A DNA stretch of 64,000 bases from Nocardiopsis listeri NBRC 13360 (GTDB taxonomy: Bacteria; Actinomycetota; Actinomycetes; Streptosporangiales; Streptosporangiaceae): positions 48,161 through 112,160 of the forward strand of contig NZ_BCSH01000021.1 in the NCBI RefSeq assembly GCF_001570765.1, given 5' to 3'. The notes under the pieces were generated by a model. That model worked only from the letters and a program-made list of their open reading frames with translations, did not search any database and was not told the origin of the DNA. The number at the start of each line of letters is the position of its first letter. Position 1 is the stretch's first letter. Made by a program: the position numbers and the translations under genes. Below are positions 28,015 through 37,098 of the stretch, one piece after another.

Positions 28015-28185
28015 ACGGCTGCCTCCTTGCGGGGGTCGGTTCTACGGGGTGGACCCCGGTGACTCGCCTGACACTAGGCCGCGTGGAACCCGACACACAT
28101 GGACACAGTGGATAATCGAAACGCCGCCCTGTGCCATTACGGAGAGGCGTGGATCGATGGGGTGGTCGAACGAGGGGGAGGCGCG

Positions 28186-29673
28186 ATGCCACCGACACTG
28201 GGAGCCCTGCTGCGCACGCCCAAACTGCGGTTGCGCCTGCTCACCGGGCAGGAGGGGCTGCACCGCAGGGTGGAGTGGGTCGCGGTCAGCGAACTCACCG
28301 ACCCCACCCCGTACCTGGCCGGGGGAGAGTTGGTGCTCACCACCGGCGTGGGCTGGGTCGAGGACCCACGGGACCTGCGCGACTACGTGCGCCGCCTGGC
28401 CGAGCGTGACATCGCCGGGCTCGGGTTCGGTGCCGACGTCGTCTTCGATCACACCCCCGACGAGCTGCGCGCGGCCGCCGAGGAGTTCGGGGTGACCCTG
28501 GTGGAGGTGGCCAAGGAGACACCCTTCATCGCGGTCGGAAAGGAGGTCTCTCGGCTGCTGGCCCAAGAGGAGTACGAGGGTCTGACCAGGGCCTTCGCCG
28601 CTCAACGGGAACTCGCCCGGGCCGCGTTGCGCGGTGCGGGCGCCGTCGTCGAACGGTTGGCCCGCGAACTCGACGGGTGGGTGCTGTTGCTGGAGCCCGA
28701 CGGTTCGGTTCGACACGCCGCCCCCGCCCGGGCCGCCGAGCACGCCCGCCGGTCGGCCGCCGAACTGCCCCGGCTGCGCGGGGCCGGGCCCCGCGCCGGA
28801 GTCTCGGTGATCTCCGGCGACGAGCACGTGGCTCTGCAGTCCCTGGCCATCGGTCGTCGGGTGCGGGGCTTCCTCGCCGTGGGCTCCCGCAGGGGATTCG
28901 GGTCGCACGACCGCACCCTGGTCAACGCCGCGGTGTCGTTGCTGTCCCTGGAACTGGAACGCCCGACCACGGAGGGCGGGTCCGGGATCACGCCGGGGGT
29001 GGTGGCCGCGTTGTTCGACGGGGCCCTGGATCCCGCGCACGCGGGTGCGGCGGCCCTGCGCCGAGCCCTTCCCGACGAACCGGTGGTGGTGGCCGCCGTG
29101 CAGGGCCCGCCGCCGGAGGGTCCGTTCCCGGACGGGGTCCTGATCACCGACGCCGGGGACGTCCCTTCCGCCGACCCGGCCACAGGCACGCTGCTGCTGG
29201 CCTCGGCCGAGAACCTCGACCGGCTTCCCGAGGTGTTCGACGAACTCTTCGACGGGGGCGCGGGGTTGAGCGGGCCGGTGTCCTACGCCGAGCTGGCCGT
29301 GGCCCGCGCCCAGGCCGAACGGGCCTTGGCCGTGTCGGTGGACGAGGGACGTGGTCCGGTGCGCTCCGGGGACCTGCCCGGTGGTCTGCTCGGGCTGCTG
29401 GAGACCCCCGCCGGGGCCCGGTTGGCCGATGACCTCCTCGCTCCCCTCGACCGTCAGCGCAACGCCGCCGAACTGCTCGCCTCACTCCGTGCCTACCTCG
29501 CCGCTTCGGGCCGCTGGGACGCCGCGGCCGAACGACTGGGTGTGCATCGGCACACCCTGCGTTATCGGATGAAACGCATTCGGGAGCTGCTCCCGGGAGA
29601 CCTCGACGACCCCGATCACCGCACGGAACTGTGGATCTCCCTTCGTGTCCGCCAAGGGCGAGCTCGGCCCTGA
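28186..29673 (+). CDS. PucR-family transcriptional regulator (second)
   Basis: 495 residues from ATG 28186 with GGGGGAGG upstream; the open frame extends to 28099. The PucR domain carries LGALLRTPKLRLRLLTG and VEWVAVSELTDPTPYLAGGE. The C-terminal helix-turn-helix reads YLAASGRWDAAAERLGVHRH then TLRYRMKRIRELL. Divergent from gabT by 171 bp, so it probably responds to GABA or a related amine. Its middle section is shorter and more divergent than that of the first PucR protein. Confidence 0.88.
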   Translation: MPPTLGALLRTPKLRLRLLTGQEGLHRRVEWVAVSELTDPTPYLAGGELVLTTGVGWVEDPRDLRDYVRRLAERDIAGLGFGADVVFDHTPDELRAAAEEFGVTLVEVAKETPFIAVGKEVSRLLAQEEYEGLTRAFAAQRELARAALRGAGAVVERLARELDGWVLLLEPDGSVRHAAPARAAEHARRSAAELPRLRGAGPRAGVSVISGDEHVALQSLAIGRRVRGFLAVGSRRGFGSHDRTLVNAAVSLLSLELERPTTEGGSGITPGVVAALFDGALDPAHAGAAALRRALPDEPVVVAAVQGPPPEGPFPDGVLITDAGDVPSADPATGTLLLASAENLDRLPEVFDELFDGGAGLSGPVSYAELAVARAQAERALAVSVDEGRGPVRSGDLPGGLLGLLETPAGARLADDLLAPLDRQRNAAELLASLRAYLAASGRWDAAAERLGVHRHTLRYRMKRIRELLPGDLDDPDHRTELWISLRVRQGRARP

Positions 29674-29817: not shown

Positions 29818-32800
29818 GTGAGATCACTGCGAGACGAGGCACGGAGCGGACCGACCGGTACCCACACCACCGTGGGCGGAACGGTCGGCGACACGGGTGT
29901 GCAGGGTGTCGGGGTGGGAACGGCCTCGCTGCGCTGGAAGCCCCCCGTCGACCGGGGCGAGGTCCGTTCGTTCCTGGCCTACCTGCGCTCCTGTCTGCAC
30001 CGGGAGGCGGTCCACGGCCACGTGGTGCGCGCCGAACACCTGGAGTCCGACACCTGCTCCTGCCTTCCGGCCGGTCCGGAACTGCTCTTGAGCGGGGCCA
30101 GGGACACCCTGCCCCTGCACCACGAGAGCGCACGCGTCACGCGACTCGCCGGTCGCTACGGTCAGGCCCTGCGCTACGGCTACCCACTGGTCGTCCTGCC
30201 CGCTGAACCGGCGGACGAGATCGACGCGCGGGTGACGTTGCCGCTGCTCACCTTGGACGTCCGGCTCGTCGACGAGTACGACGCCCGAGGGACCGGCGAG
30301 CGGCTCGGGGTCGGTGACGTGCCCCTGGTCCGGGCCCTCGGTCCGCCCGACGTCAACATCGCCCTGCTGGCCCGCCTGGGCATCACCGACCCCGAGGACC
30401 TCTTCGAGCTGCGCACCAGGTTGCGCGCCGGGGCGCCCGACACGGTCCACCGACCGGCCGCCGTCGCCGACCTCGCCGCGAAGGTGCGCGTCCTGCTCAC
30501 CCGCCTGGAGATCGAGCGCGTCGACGACATCGCCCCGCTCGGCACCCGTGGCCTGCCCCGGACGTTGGACGTCGGCGCGCACAACACCGCGGTGCTCTTC
30601 CGTGCCGGTCCGGGTGGCCGACCCGAGACCGAGGAACCCGAACCCGGCAGCGTCGAGGGCTTGTTGGCCGACCTGGACCCCACCGACCGGGACGGTCTGG
30701 ACCCCGACGCCATCGGTGGCACCGCACTGGAATCCCTCCTCGGCGCACGCCCCTTCGGTGGCAGGTCCGACCGTGACCAGGGAACGGGCGGGGGGCGACC
30801 GGCCCGGGGGCGACGGCGTCGCGCCACCGGTCGGCGAGCCCAAGGCGCCGCGGAGGCCACCGCTTCCACCGTGCCCGTACCGATCTCGGTCACAGCCCTG
30901 TCCCAGCCCCGATACCGGGCGCTGAGTTCGGCCATGCGCGAGCAGCTCACCGTGGTCGCCGCCCCGCCCGGCACCGGCGCCTACGACCTCGTGGACGCCA
31001 TGGTCCGCACCGCCGTCACCGCCGGGCAGCGCGTCCTGGTGTGCGCGAGTACCGAAGCCGGTGTCGAGGCGGTCCTGCGCCGGGCTGACACCGACCCCGG
31101 CCACCCCGTGGTCCGGGCCGGTGGTCCCGAACGACGCGCCACCGAGGCACGCCTGCTCACCAGGGTCCTGGGCCGGCACACAGGGGCCATCCCCGTCACG
31201 ATGACCCCCGACGACGAGGATCCGGACCGCCCCGACGCCCTCACCGACGCCTGGAACCGGGTCCGCCGGGTGTGGGAGGCCATGGACACCATGGCCTCCG
31301 GCGGCCACGCCCTCGCCCACCTGGCCGAGGAACGAGGCCGCAGCATCGCCCGCGGCTGGGACCCCGACACCTTCTTCACTCCCGAACGAGGCGGCCCCGA
31401 GTACTGGCTGCACCGGGCCGAGCGCGCGGCCACCGGCGGGCCGGGCGGTCTGTTCCACCGTGCCGCGGTCCGCCGCGAGCTCGGTGTGAACACCGACCCC
31501 GACAGTCTGGCCAGGCTGTGCGCCGTGGCCCGTCTGGAGAGCGACTGGCGCGAGGCCGTGGACCGCCGTACCCGCAGCGCGCCCCTGGCCGAACTCACCG
31601 ACGACCTCGCCCGTGCCCTCGACGACCACCGGCGAGCCGGGGCGCAGCGTCTCACCGCGATCACCGAACCCCGGCTCTGGCGCGGTCGCGCCGCCATCGA
31701 GAACCGTCTGGAGACCCTCAACTGGCACCACGGCGGCGGCCGAACCGGGCTCACCGGACTCCTCGGCGCCCTGCCCGCCTGGGTCTGCCGCACCGATCAG
31801 GTCCGCGCCCTGCCCCCGCACGCCGGCCTGTTCGACCTGGTGATCGTGGCGGGAGCCGAACGAACCCGGGTCGGTGAACTCCTGCCCGTCCTCTACCGGG
31901 CCGACCGCGCCGTCGTCGTCGGCGACCCCGCGCACCCCGGTCCGCTCACCGTCCTGGAACCCGAGGAGGAACGCCGGGCCCTGGCCACCGCAGGGCTCGT
32001 TCCCGACCTGCTCGACGACCGTGCCCTGCGCTACGGTGCCGGATCGGCCCTGCGCGCCGCCTACAAGGCCGCTCCGCCCATGCTGTGGCTGGACGAGCAC
32101 CGGGGTGCCCCCGACCCCCTGGCCACCGCCGCCGCACGCCACTGCTACGGGGGACGGATCTCGGTGATCACCGAACCCGAACCCGCCCGAGGTCCCGTCT
32201 TCGACTGGCGTGACGTCACCGGCGAATGCGAGGCCGCGCCGGGATCCTCCTACATCAATCGTGACGAGGCCTATCGGGTCGCCGTGGTGGTCGACGAGCT
32301 CGACCAGGAACTCCCCGAAGGCCACACCCTGGCCGTGGTCGCACCCCTGCAACCCCAGGTGGCGTTGGTCCGCCGGCTGCTGCGCCAACGCGTCCTGCGC
32401 CGGTCCGTCCGGGTCGGCGGTCCGGATCTGTTGGCGGAGGGCGCCGGTACGAACGACGTCACCTTGCTGTCCCCGATGCTCACCGCCGGCGGGCCCGCCA
32501 TCGCCGAACGTCGGGTGCGCCGGATGAGCCACCTGTGGGCGTCGATCCTCACCCGGACCCGACGTCGGCTCGTGGTGGTGGGGGACCGCTCCCACTGGGC
32601 CCAGGGCGACGGGCCCCTCGCCGACCTGATCGCCGGGGCATCGGCCACCGGTACCGTGGGCACACCCGTCGATCCGGCCGGCGCCGCCCTGGTCGACGCC
32701 CTACGCGCCGCCGGCACCGACGTCACCGTCGCACCACGACTGCACGGTCACGCCGCCGACCTGCTCGTTCGCTACGGGGCCCGCCGGGTGGTGCTCCTGC

Positions 32801-32955
32801 TCGACCGCGAACCCGATGGTCCCGCCCTACGCCGGCTCCTGGCCCGCGGCGAGGCCCTCAACGGGGCCACCGACGACCTCGTCGTGGTCGTACCCGCCTG
32901 GCGTTGCCTGGCCGACCCGCGCGCTCTGGTCGAGGAGATCCTCTCCGCCTGCTGA
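29818..32955 (+). CDS. SF1-helicase-like pseudoenzyme, 1045 residues
   Basis: Large cytosolic protein with the layout of UPF1/Dna2-like superfamily 1 helicases (AAA_11/AAA_12). The catalytic residues are lost. Walker A reads APPGTGAY at 382-389, with Ala388 in place of Lys and Tyr389 in place of Thr/Ser. Walker B reads FDLVIVAGAE at 672-681, with Ala678-Gly679 in place of Asp-Glu. GDPAHPGPL resembles motif III, and LDEHRG keeps an Arg of motif IV-like type. The last 110 residues look like a degenerate restriction-endonuclease fold (HAADLLV, VVLLLDREPDG). The N-terminal 330 residues are unrecognised, followed by an Arg/Gly linker. Start: GTG 29818; no strong ribosome-binding site. No ATP hydrolysis is expected. 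Confidence 0.75.
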   Translation: MRSLRDEARSGPTGTHTTVGGTVGDTGVQGVGVGTASLRWKPPVDRGEVRSFLAYLRSCLHREAVHGHVVRAEHLESDTCSCLPAGPELLLSGARDTLPLHHESARVTRLAGRYGQALRYGYPLVVLPAEPADEIDARVTLPLLTLDVRLVDEYDARGTGERLGVGDVPLVRALGPPDVNIALLARLGITDPEDLFELRTRLRAGAPDTVHRPAAVADLAAKVRVLLTRLEIERVDDIAPLGTRGLPRTLDVGAHNTAVLFRAGPGGRPETEEPEPGSVEGLLADLDPTDRDGLDPDAIGGTALESLLGARPFGGRSDRDQGTGGGRPARGRRRRATGRRAQGAAEATASTVPVPISVTALSQPRYRALSSAMREQLTVVAAPPGTGAYDLVDAMVRTAVTAGQRVLVCASTEAGVEAVLRRADTDPGHPVVRAGGPERRATEARLLTRVLGRHTGAIPVTMTPDDEDPDRPDALTDAWNRVRRVWEAMDTMASGGHALAHLAEERGRSIARGWDPDTFFTPERGGPEYWLHRAERAATGGPGGLFHRAAVRRELGVNTDPDSLARLCAVARLESDWREAVDRRTRSAPLAELTDDLARALDDHRRAGAQRLTAITEPRLWRGRAAIENRLETLNWHHGGGRTGLTGLLGALPAWVCRTDQVRALPPHAGLFDLVIVAGAERTRVGELLPVLYRADRAVVVGDPAHPGPLTVLEPEEERRALATAGLVPDLLDDRALRYGAGSALRAAYKAAPPMLWLDEHRGAPDPLATAAARHCYGGRISVITEPEPARGPVFDWRDVTGECEAAPGSSYINRDEAYRVAVVVDELDQELPEGHTLAVVAPLQPQVALVRRLLRQRVLRRSVRVGGPDLLAEGAGTNDVTLLSPMLTAGGPAIAERRVRRMSHLWASILTRTRRRLVVVGDRSHWAQGDGPLADLIAGASATGTVGTPVDPAGAALVDALRAAGTDVTVAPRLHGHAADLLVRYGARRVVLLLDREPDGPALRRLLARGEALNGATDDLVVVVPAWRCLADPRALVEEILSAC

Positions 32956-33093: not shown

Positions 33094-33972
33094 GTGCCCG
33101 AGGGACACACACTGCATCGGCTGGCCACGCACTTCGACAAGACCTTCGGCGGCGGCGCCGTGCGCGCCACCAGCCCCCAAGGCAGGTTCTCCGACGGGGC
33201 CGCACGCGTCGACGGGCGGGTCCTGGTCGAGGGTGAGGCCCACGGCAAGCACCTCTTCCTGGGCTTCGACTCGGGCGAGTGGCTCCGCGTCCACCTCGGT
33301 CTCTACGGTGCCTGGACCTTCGGCGACGTCGACGGTGAACGTCACCTGGGCGCACCGCGGACCCCCGGCGCGGATCGGCTCGAACTGGAACGCGACCCCG
33401 ACGGTTTCGTCGTGGCGCCCACACCGGTGGGGGCCGTCCGAGCCCGACTGGTCAACACCGGTGGCTGGGCCGACCTGCGCGGTCCCTCGGCCTGCGAGGT
33501 CATCACCACCGACGACAAGCACGCGGTCCAGAACCGGCTGGGCCCCGACCCCCTGCGTTCCGACGCCGACCCCGACCAGGCCTGGCGGATGATCTCGCGC
33601 TCGCGTACGACCATCGCCGCGTTGCTGATGCGCCAGGACGTCATCGCGGGCGTCGGCAACATCTACCGCGCCGAATCCCTGTTCCGCGCCGGGATCGATC
33701 CCCTGACCCCCGGCCGAGAACTGGGTCGGGAACGGTGGGAGACCCTGTGGGAGGACCTGTCCGGCCTGCTGCGCGACGGGGTACGGGACGGCTACATCAT
33801 CACCACCCGGCCCGAGGACCGTCCCGATCCCGACGCCCACCCCGTGCCCCGACCCGACACCCTCTACGTGTGCTACCGGACCGGTGAACCCTGCCGGGTG
33901 TGCTCCTCGCCGATCGCCTCCTCGGAACTGGCCGGACGCACCCTGTACTGGTGTCCCGGATGTCAGCCCTGA
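33094..33972 (+). CDS. Nei/Fpg-family DNA glycosylase (Nei2-like)
   Basis: 292-residue base-excision repair glycosylase/AP lyase for oxidised bases. After Met removal Pro2-Glu3 (PEGHTLHRLA) are the catalytic N-terminus. The catalytic Lys is in EAHGKHLFLGF. The helix-two-turn-helix is RQDVIAGVGNIYRAESLF. The zinc finger is CRVC-x16-CPGC at the C-terminus, ending with an intact GCQP. This is the actinobacterial Nei2 subgroup rather than MutM. GTG 33094 is fixed by the requirement for the PEG start. It follows the helicase-like gene by 138 bp on the same strand and may share a transcript. Confidence 0.93.
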   Translation: MPEGHTLHRLATHFDKTFGGGAVRATSPQGRFSDGAARVDGRVLVEGEAHGKHLFLGFDSGEWLRVHLGLYGAWTFGDVDGERHLGAPRTPGADRLELERDPDGFVVAPTPVGAVRARLVNTGGWADLRGPSACEVITTDDKHAVQNRLGPDPLRSDADPDQAWRMISRSRTTIAALLMRQDVIAGVGNIYRAESLFRAGIDPLTPGRELGRERWETLWEDLSGLLRDGVRDGYIITTRPEDRPDPDAHPVPRPDTLYVCYRTGEPCRVCSSPIASSELAGRTLYWCPGCQP

Positions 33973-35184: not shown

Positions 35185-35290
35185 ACCGGTCTTCTCGGTG
35201 TGTCTTCGGGTCGACATGCCTGTTACAAGCGGATAACGCCGAAGTGTCGGGGATTGACGGGGTCTATCCGGGCATGCTGTTGTGGACCTC

Positions 35291-35306
35291 ACTTACCCGG
35301 TTCAGT
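35291..35306. promoter_or_regulatory. LacI-type operator, promoter-proximal copy
   Basis: ACTTACCCGGTTCAGT matches the autoregulatory operator at 14 of 16 positions and lies 100 bp before the binding-protein start. The spacing of 122 bp to the upstream copy would allow DNA looping. Confidence 0.75.
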
Positions 35307-35328
35307 AACGGCCCTTCGCGCTCACTAT

Positions 35329-35342
35329 TGGGAGCGCTCCCA
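35329..35342. promoter_or_regulatory. CebR/CelR-type operator TGGGAGCGCTCCCA
   Basis: This perfect 14-bp palindrome is identical to the published binding site of the cellulose-utilisation repressors CebR (Streptomyces) and CelR (Thermobifida fusca). It is 64 bp before the binding-protein start, within the likely transcribed leader. Control of this operon by the cell's cellobiose-sensing repressor, encoded elsewhere, is inferred. Confidence 0.85.
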
Positions 35343-35406
35343 GCCTTCCTCTGAGGGATCGGCTTCCCCCCTGAAAAGGGCCGACCGGGTCGAAGGAGGA
35401 GTCGAG

Positions 35407-37098
35407 ATGAAAACTCTGAGGCTTCCCGCCGTGCTGGCGGCGGTGGTGCTCATCGCCACCGCGTGTTCCAGCGAAGGCGGAGACACCGGAAGCGGGAGCT
35501 ATCCCCGCAACGAGACCCTGTACACCACCGGTACGGCCTGGAACCCGCCGACCAACTGGAACCCGATCATGCGGGGCCAGTACGCGGTGGGCACCTTCGG
35601 GCTGGCCTACGAGCCGCTCTTCCACTACGACGCGGAGGCCAACGAGTACGTCCACTGGCTCGCGGAGAGCGACGAGTGGCCCGACGAGAACACCCACGTC
35701 ATCACCCTGAGGGAAGGGATGACGTGGACCGACGGCGAGGCCATCGACGCCGAGGACGTCGTCGCCACCATCGAACTCGGACAGATGGACGTCTCCTACA
35801 GCAACATCTGGGACTACATCGAGGGCGTCGAGGCCACCGGAGAGCGGGAGGTGACGGTCACCTTCTCCGATTCCCGGCCCCAGGAATGGATGAACTGGGC
35901 CTTCAATAACCCCATCGTTCCCGAGCACATCTGGGCCGACAAGGGCCAGGCCGAGCTCACCGACGACCCCAACAACGATCCGGTCGGCAGCGGCCCCTAC
36001 GCCTACGAGACCCACGCCGACGACCGCATGGTCTGGAAGCGCAACGATGAGTGGTGGGGCACCGAGGCCCTCGACCTGGAAATGAAGCCGACCTACATCG
36101 TGGACGTCGTCAACGCCTCCAACGAGGTGACGATGAACATGCTCAGCAACGGCGAGGTCGACGTCTCGAACAACTTCCTCCCCGGCATCGAAAAGTCGCT
36201 CGACGGCGAGCGTCTCACCAGCTTCTACGATGGCCCTCCCTACATGCAGTCCGCGAACACCGCCTGGTTGGTGGTCAACCACGACCACCCGGTGCTGGGC
36301 GACGCGGAGTTCCGACAGGCGCTGGCCCACTCCATCGACCTGAACCAGATCATCAGCGGCCCCTACTCGGACCTGGTCGATGGTGCCAACCCCACCGGTC
36401 TGCTGCCCCAGTGGGACGCCTACATCGACCAGGAGCTGGTAGAGGAGGAGGGCTTCTCCTACAACGCGGACGAAGCGGTGGCCATCCTGGAGGAGGCCGG
36501 TTATCTCGACGAGGACGGTGACGGCTACGTCGAGAGCCCGGACGGTGAGCCGATCAACCTCACCCTGGAGGTCCCCGGTGGCTGGAGCGACTGGGAGGAG
36601 GCCGCCCGGGTCATCTCCGAGAACGCCCAGGAGGTCGGGATCAACATCGGGACGGACTTCCCCGACGAAGGCCTGCTCACCGACAATCGCAACTCCGGTG
36701 AGTTCGACCTGGTCATCAACAACGAGCGTCAGCTGAGCAACACGCCGTGGAGCTACTACGACTACCTGTTCCAGATGCCGGTTCGTGACACGCAGACGAC
36801 CGCGAACTTCGGTCGCTACGAGAACGAAGAGGTCTGGGACCTGGTCCAGCAGCTCGCCGCCGTCCCGGCCGACGACGTGGAGGGCGCCGCGGAGATCACC
36901 TCGCAGATCCAGGAGATCCAGCTGGCCGAACTGCCGGCGATCCCGCTCTGGTACAACGGCCTCTGGTCGCAGCAGAGCAACAGCGTTTGGACCAATTGGC
37001 CGAGTGAACAGGGCACTCCCGGCTACGCCACGATGTGGGACGGATGGTTCGAACTCGGTGCCATCCGCACCCTCGCCGAGATCGAACTGGCCGAATAG
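35407..37098 (+). CDS. ABC transporter substrate-binding lipoprotein, family 5 (manno-oligosaccharide candidate)
   Basis: 563 residues from ATG 35407, with AAGGAGGA 6 nt upstream. Lipobox IATAC with Cys20 lipidated. SBP_bac_5 features include WLAESDEWPDENTHVITLRE and MTWTDGEAIDAEDVVATIEL. FRQALAHSIDLNQIISG and TGLLPQWDAYI follow. Family 5 covers dipeptide/oligopeptide and also cello- and manno-oligosaccharide binding proteins. The flanking beta-mannosidase, LacI gene and CebR/CelR palindrome favour a beta-linked oligosaccharide ligand. First gene of a six-gene operon. Confidence 0.9.
   Translation: MKTLRLPAVLAAVVLIATACSSEGGDTGSGSYPRNETLYTTGTAWNPPTNWNPIMRGQYAVGTFGLAYEPLFHYDAEANEYVHWLAESDEWPDENTHVITLREGMTWTDGEAIDAEDVVATIELGQMDVSYSNIWDYIEGVEATGEREVTVTFSDSRPQEWMNWAFNNPIVPEHIWADKGQAELTDDPNNDPVGSGPYAYETHADDRMVWKRNDEWWGTEALDLEMKPTYIVDVVNASNEVTMNMLSNGEVDVSNNFLPGIEKSLDGERLTSFYDGPPYMQSANTAWLVVNHDHPVLGDAEFRQALAHSIDLNQIISGPYSDLVDGANPTGLLPQWDAYIDQELVEEEGFSYNADEAVAILEEAGYLDEDGDGYVESPDGEPINLTLEVPGGWSDWEEAARVISENAQEVGINIGTDFPDEGLLTDNRNSGEFDLVINNERQLSNTPWSYYDYLFQMPVRDTQTTANFGRYENEEVWDLVQQLAAVPADDVEGAAEITSQIQEIQLAELPAIPLWYNGLWSQQSNSVWTNWPSEQGTPGYATMWDGWFELGAIRTLAEIELAE

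Follow-up and report, generated by a model that had tools for sequence, protein, structure and literature searches.

The stretch of Nocardiopsis listeri NBRC 13360 DNA analysed here (contig NZ_BCSH01000021.1, positions 48,161 to 112,160; the window, 64,000 nucleotides) carries a gene for a protein built like a UPF1-type superfamily 1 (SF1) helicase but without the residues on which ATPase activity depends, and we refer to it as the pseudo-helicase. The gene, its parts and its immediate neighbours, all on the forward strand, are as follows.

28099..29673, + strand: PucR-type regulator, upstream, ending 144 bp before the pseudo-helicase start and used to mark positional orthology
29818..32955, + strand: pseudo-helicase gene, with a GTG start and 1045 codons before the stop; 72 homologues
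29944..30747, + strand: residues 43-310, N-terminal segment aligned to the beginning of the UPF1/IGHMBP2 helicase core, predicted to be the stalk and barrel-like region (extent judged from the model)
30748..30873, + strand: residues 311-352, variable Arg-rich linker of low confidence
30961..30990, + strand: residues 382-391 (APPGTGAYDL), dead Walker A (motif I), with substitutions for Lys (388) and Thr/Ser (389)
31198..31737, + strand: residues 461-640, long helical insertion in RecA domain 1, from the secondary structure of the model (extent inferred)
31831..31860, + strand: residues 672-681 (FDLVIVAGAE), dead Walker B (motif II), with Asp-Glu changed to Ala-Gly
31993..32652, + strand: RecA domain 2, spanning roughly residues 726-945 as judged from the model; motifs IV, V and VI are eroded, and AAA_12 matches at residues 797-924
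32671..32952, + strand: residues 952-1045, restriction-endonuclease-like C-terminal fold, lacking the Glu of the canonical domain compared
33094..33972, + strand: Fpg/Nei-type DNA glycosylase (Nei), downstream, starting 138 bp after the pseudo-helicase stop

An antisense frame of 923 codons was set aside as a shadow frame of GC-rich DNA, the forward frame being backed by homology and Pfam. In the sources the homologues are named ‘DNA helicase’, ‘DEAD/DEAH box helicase’, ‘ATP-binding protein’ or hypothetical. The fold of the pseudo-helicase is predicted with high confidence, and the model (aligned to UPF1/IGHMBP2 over residues 43..944) together with fold searches yields two RecA-like domains with UPF1-type accessory parts; these domains and the AAA_12 profile match bear out the helicase fold that an earlier note had read from the letters of the window. 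The linker is modelled with low confidence (predicted local distance difference test score below 50 over residues 313-349) and has the highest mean entropy, 2.65 bits, among the 13 regions compared. We do not claim a loss of catalytic lysine in the nuclease-like C-terminal domain, since the canonical domain compared shows no matching lysine.

The loss of the ATPase motifs extends well beyond the window. Among the 64 closest proteins (the core set, window’s protein included, 982-1070 residues long), none has Lys at position 388, where the window protein has Ala; Gly679 is present in all 64 and is preceded by a hydrophobic or small residue (Ala678-Gly679 in the window); and 61 carry Gly at 763, the arginine position of motif IV. 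The claim that both ATPase motifs are destroyed is thus confirmed as a pattern common to the core proteins, and this agreement of 64 proteins rules out a sequencing error at the two motifs. P383, G385 and G387 are nearly invariant, as expected for a kept fold, and the GDP of motif III is retained. Former catalytic positions are relatively variable: 388 lies at the 86th percentile, 389 at the 79th and motif IV position 762 at the 95th. Comparing 17 working relatives with 21 proteins of the dead clade described below, we counted 177 positions that are invariant in the working set (at most one exception), 49 of them in helicase motifs and 128 outside, and these are retained in the dead proteins at an average of 44% inside the motifs and 73% outside. 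Lys388 is kept in 0/21 dead-clade proteins and Asp678 and Glu679 in 3/21 each, while T411, N412 and N413 of motif Ia and T868 and Q873 of motif V are kept in none. Residues of motifs Ia and V touch nucleic acid in working SF1 helicases. The protein is a pseudohelicase, in that a predicted helicase fold is conserved and the catalytic motifs read from the alignments are lost across the lineage, and the database entries so often named ‘DNA helicase’ are predicted not to be helicases.

The gene is a fixed possession of the genus. It was matched in all 40 sampled Nocardiopsis genomes, as one uninterrupted frame in 33, split over contigs in five and with frame breaks in two (G009 and G028), and 158 of 1006 scored positions are invariant in the core set. 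Ratios of nonsynonymous to synonymous substitution rates (dN/dS), computed pairwise by NG86 against fetched orthologues, are 0.226 and 0.260 for the two nearest orthologues and range from 0.226 to 0.449 over seven pairs; the corresponding ranges are 0.204-0.333 for the PucR-type regulator (PucR-2, five pairs) and 0.095-0.212 for Nei (six pairs). The constraint is real but moderate. Genus-wide presence, dN/dS and conserved positions rule out an ordinary pseudogene and uphold the view of a maintained, catalytically dead UPF1-type fold, and the outcome that the earlier note named as refuting, intact motifs in orthologues together with relaxed selection in this copy, did not occur among the 64 core relatives. 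A nearby solute-binding protein, SBP5 (window 35200-37098), has a dN/dS of 0.316-0.655 and is the fastest of the compared genes in five of six pairs.

A second, longer relative, which we call the caspase-helicase, is present in 12 of the 40 genomes; in the genome of the window we found one pseudo-helicase match and no such paralogue. Ten of the 12 are full length (1234-1409 residues as called), one being cut by a contig end (L041) and one in pieces (L042). All ten carry an N-terminal caspase domain with SGHG and LDCC, of which we take the second Cys to be catalytic by analogy with other caspase-like proteases, followed by GTGK[ST] in Walker A, DEA[ST] in Walker B and motifs IV-VI in intact form; their dN/dS is 0.147-0.286 (four pairs). 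The two that were scanned both exceed the cut-off for NCBIfam NF047832, ‘caspase, EACC1-associated type’, the effectors of System 4 of Kaur et al. 2020 (PMC7159879). A small protein with a hydrophobic helix lies 5' of the caspase-helicases and fits EACC1 as described in PMC7159879; we identified EACC1 by this position, the helix and that description, and the proteins themselves gave no significant Pfam or NCBIfam match. A probe with one EACC1 protein matched 11 of the 40 genomes, all within the 12 with a caspase-helicase; it did not find the gene in the genome of the window, and in the twelfth caspase-helicase genome (G017), where the locus is at a contig end, there was likewise no match. With tblastn, EACC1 probes matched at 16 of 17 caspase-helicase loci probed and at none of the dead loci probed; at L094, L095 and L099 EACC1 was judged by eye only, and at L096 and L100 by eye and tblastn. 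L075 encodes a helicase with intact motifs and no caspase domain, and gave no EACC1 match. Directly 3' of one working caspase-helicase lies a DUF4011-helicase-MTES protein (L034:11705-15862; MTES 107 bits), a neighbour that suggests a defence island.

The helicase and C-terminal parts of the pseudo-helicase are homologous to those of the same-genus caspase-SF1-helicases (31-33% identity to the ten full-length proteins). In contrast to these EACC1-caspase effectors, which are patchily present, the pseudo-helicase occupies a fixed syntenic place, has a dead ATPase and no adjoining EACC1 gene, and lacks a caspase domain: NF047832 was unmatched at E up to 1, and the frame begins past that domain. 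In a 44-row, midpoint-rooted tree of the helicase part (residues 355-945 of P0001), the 21 rows of dead Nocardiopsidaceae proteins group as a single clade (support 100/100) on a long stem (0.77), and the branch joining them to the same-family caspase-helicases has 97/95 support and measures 0.175 in all. The same arrangement is seen in a 35-row tree with named genomes (dead clade of 13 rows, 100/100; uniting branch 97/91, total 0.13). By descent, judging from these trees, the pseudo-helicase likely stands beside the EACC1-associated caspase-helicases, with which it shares a C-terminal helicase module; the earlier note, in contrast, had been unable to match it to a described family.

Sister lineages preserve graded stages of loss. 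The N. ansamitocini protein still has a caspase-like domain (53 bits to NF047832, cut-off 140), in which SGRI and LDCQ stand instead of SGHG and LDCC; its Walker A Lys is gone, but Asp-Glu remains. In Actinorugispora endophytica, Marinitenerispora sediminis, Thermobifida cellulosilytica and T. fusca a caspase-like domain persists without the His or the second Cys, and the Lys of Walker A and the integrity of Walker B have been lost by differing changes. No caspase block was found in N. halophila, N. endophytica, N. chromatogenes, N. suaedae, N. potens or Streptomonospora alba, nor in the 12 core Nocardiopsis proteins aligned. Loss of Walker A probably preceded that of Walker B, because N. ansamitocini keeps Asp-Glu and no examined member keeps the Lys. 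L063, L065, L066, L068 and L069 have PucR, Nei or another of the window neighbours close by, which makes them probable positional orthologues; L066 and P0064 (named N. gilva) have identical helicase parts. The two Thermobifida proteins (L084, L086) keep the pseudo-caspase and lack most of the equivalent of residues 45-300, a reduction opposite to that of Nocardiopsis.

At the place expected for EACC1, directly 5' of the disarmed gene in sister lineages, we observed two small homologous proteins in tandem. They may be roadblock-like; Pfam and PDB profile searches gave no match. A relative of one of them occurs in 37 of the 40 Nocardiopsis genomes and was not beside the disarmed gene at the loci probed.

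L063:5870-6966: tandem small proteins
L064:4969-6110: tandem small proteins
L066:6763-7290: small protein of this kind, only one seen
L077:4635-5683: tandem small proteins
G000:C16:9286-9654: relative of a small tandem protein

The caspase-helicase has also been disarmed independently in Jiangellaceae-like genomes (L073, L098, L101, L104, P0069, P0071). In Jiangella (P0071, L098, L101, L104) the caspase His is Tyr and the helicase Lys is retained; in P0069 and L073 (G133) the helicase Lys is lost too. The trees require three changes of Lys state, one in Nocardiopsidaceae and two in the Jiangella-like series, the latter being either two losses or one loss and one regain. No EACC1-like frame was found 5' of L098, L101 and L104 by eye and tblastn, and none near L073. 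Loss of EACC1 and death of the caspase thus seem to coincide in both lineages, and in the second to come before death of the helicase.

UPF1 and IGHMBP2, both SF1B helicases, align at 17-19% identity and, unlike the pseudo-helicase, have the catalytic residues. The best matches in a defence library (PADLOC) are the Mokosh helicases MkoA/MkoC and Hhe, with an MkoC score of 46.5 bits for the pseudo-helicase, which is weak, against 202 bits for the working relative L034. Mokosh joins a helicase to a kinase or PLD nuclease domain, and a Pfam search found neither domain in the pseudo-helicase. The nearest precedent that we found for a lineage-wide bacterial pseudohelicase is PriA of Deinococcus radiodurans, which is retained without ATPase or unwinding activity and has motifs poorly kept across its lineage (PMC4504706). 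PriA differs in being a replication restart factor of another helicase family that is not conflict-derived.

We favour, with moderate confidence, the reading that this is a UPF1-like pseudo-helicase whose predicted fold is intact and which likely serves as a non-enzymatic binding scaffold descended from an EACC1-caspase-helicase immune protein; the scaffold role is plausible. The ancestor would have been a conflict protein coupled to EACC1, and the membrane partner and the caspase would have been the first to be lost or disarmed; ATP use would have gone next, Walker A ahead of Walker B, and the caspase-like domain would then have been shed in Nocardiopsis. Because no ATP switch, protease or nuclease residues are left, the protein would act by binding only, most likely to a protein partner also met by working helicases, possibly as a decoy or competitor for an inhibitor, trigger or subunit. 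A general role as regulator of a resident working paralogue is ruled out, since no paralogue was found in 28 of the 40 genomes. For inactive enzyme modules of bacterial conflict systems, a part as decoy or dominant negative has been suggested (PMC7159879). More tentatively, disarming may have run domain by domain (membrane sensor and protease, then ATP use, then shedding of the protease domain) to leave a non-enzymatic decoy as a core gene of Nocardiopsidaceae, with Jiangellaceae-like bacteria repeating the course independently.

A protein partner is preferred because the losses in motifs Ia and V, at positions invariant in the 17 working relatives, argue against a simple grip on nucleic acid, and they weaken the RNA/DNA-binding role proposed earlier. 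Nevertheless, a pseudo-helicase that holds DNA or RNA without a motor in some housekeeping role is the strongest of the alternatives, unlikely as we consider it: the UPF1-like core ends in a nuclease-like fold, and D. radiodurans PriA keeps DNA binding and an interaction with DnaB (PMC4504706).

Still less probable is a DNA-repair scaffold tied to the neighbouring glycosylase. Nei is on the same strand and was called adjoining the pseudo-helicase at 17 of 20 fetched Nocardiopsis orthologue loci (at each of the other three, one gene of the pair escaped the gene caller), and it directly adjoins in L065 and L066, of two further genera. This adjacency is weak evidence because synteny at the fetched loci, where PucR-2 was called immediately 5' at 12 of 20, stretches well past the pseudo-helicase and Nei; moreover, the gaps are 15-352 bp at 14 of the 17 adjacent loci, two called genes intervene in L063 (Actinorugispora) and five in L064 (Marinitenerispora), and Nei was not called within the fetched stretch of L068 (T. 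fusca) or L069. The observed link to Nei is one of synteny, and a functional one is only putative.

That the gene is a relic under weak selection, without current function, is very unlikely; one dN/dS value of 0.449 and the variability of the former catalytic positions would fit it, but the matches in every sampled genome, the invariant positions and the high-confidence fold do not. Use of nucleoside triphosphate through a non-canonical site is scarcely credible, since the protein retains the P-loop glycines and motif III GDP but has lost the Lys, the Asp-Glu, the arginine position of motif IV and the greater part of motifs Ia and V.

Several points weigh against descent from an immune protein into a binding scaffold. 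The union with working copies depends on midpoint rooting and on the one short branch in each tree, and warnings attached to the trees concern long branches (L075, P0072, P0073; L105) and rows that differ in composition, including P0067 and L083 of the dead clade. The near-invariant PPGxG glycines may leave residual nucleotide contact possible. The dN/dS of the pseudo-helicase exceeds that of the working paralogue and of most compared neighbours, only SBP5 being clearly faster, and the moderate level of constraint counts on the same side, as does the missing paralogue in most genomes, the window’s included. Relative to three neighbours, the distance between dead genes averages 1.87 (standard deviation, SD, 0.22) in 25 pairs with a working copy, 2.22 (SD 0.29) in 36 pairs without and 2.03 (SD 0.31) in 69 mixed pairs; that the dead gene evolves differently alongside a working copy is only a lead, as the 130 of 153 pairs of 18 loci used (at least two neighbour distances were required of a pair, the broken L062 was omitted and L054 was not called) are not independent.

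No report of this gene was found in the open-licence literature searched, and to our knowledge a working-to-dead series laid out across living genera is unusual. Here the working protein, the staged sisters and the genus-fixed dead form coexist in living genera, with the working paralogue in some of the same genomes, and the pseudo-enzyme idea can thereby be tested directly in actinomycetes that grow in culture, Thermobifida fusca and Nocardiopsis among them.
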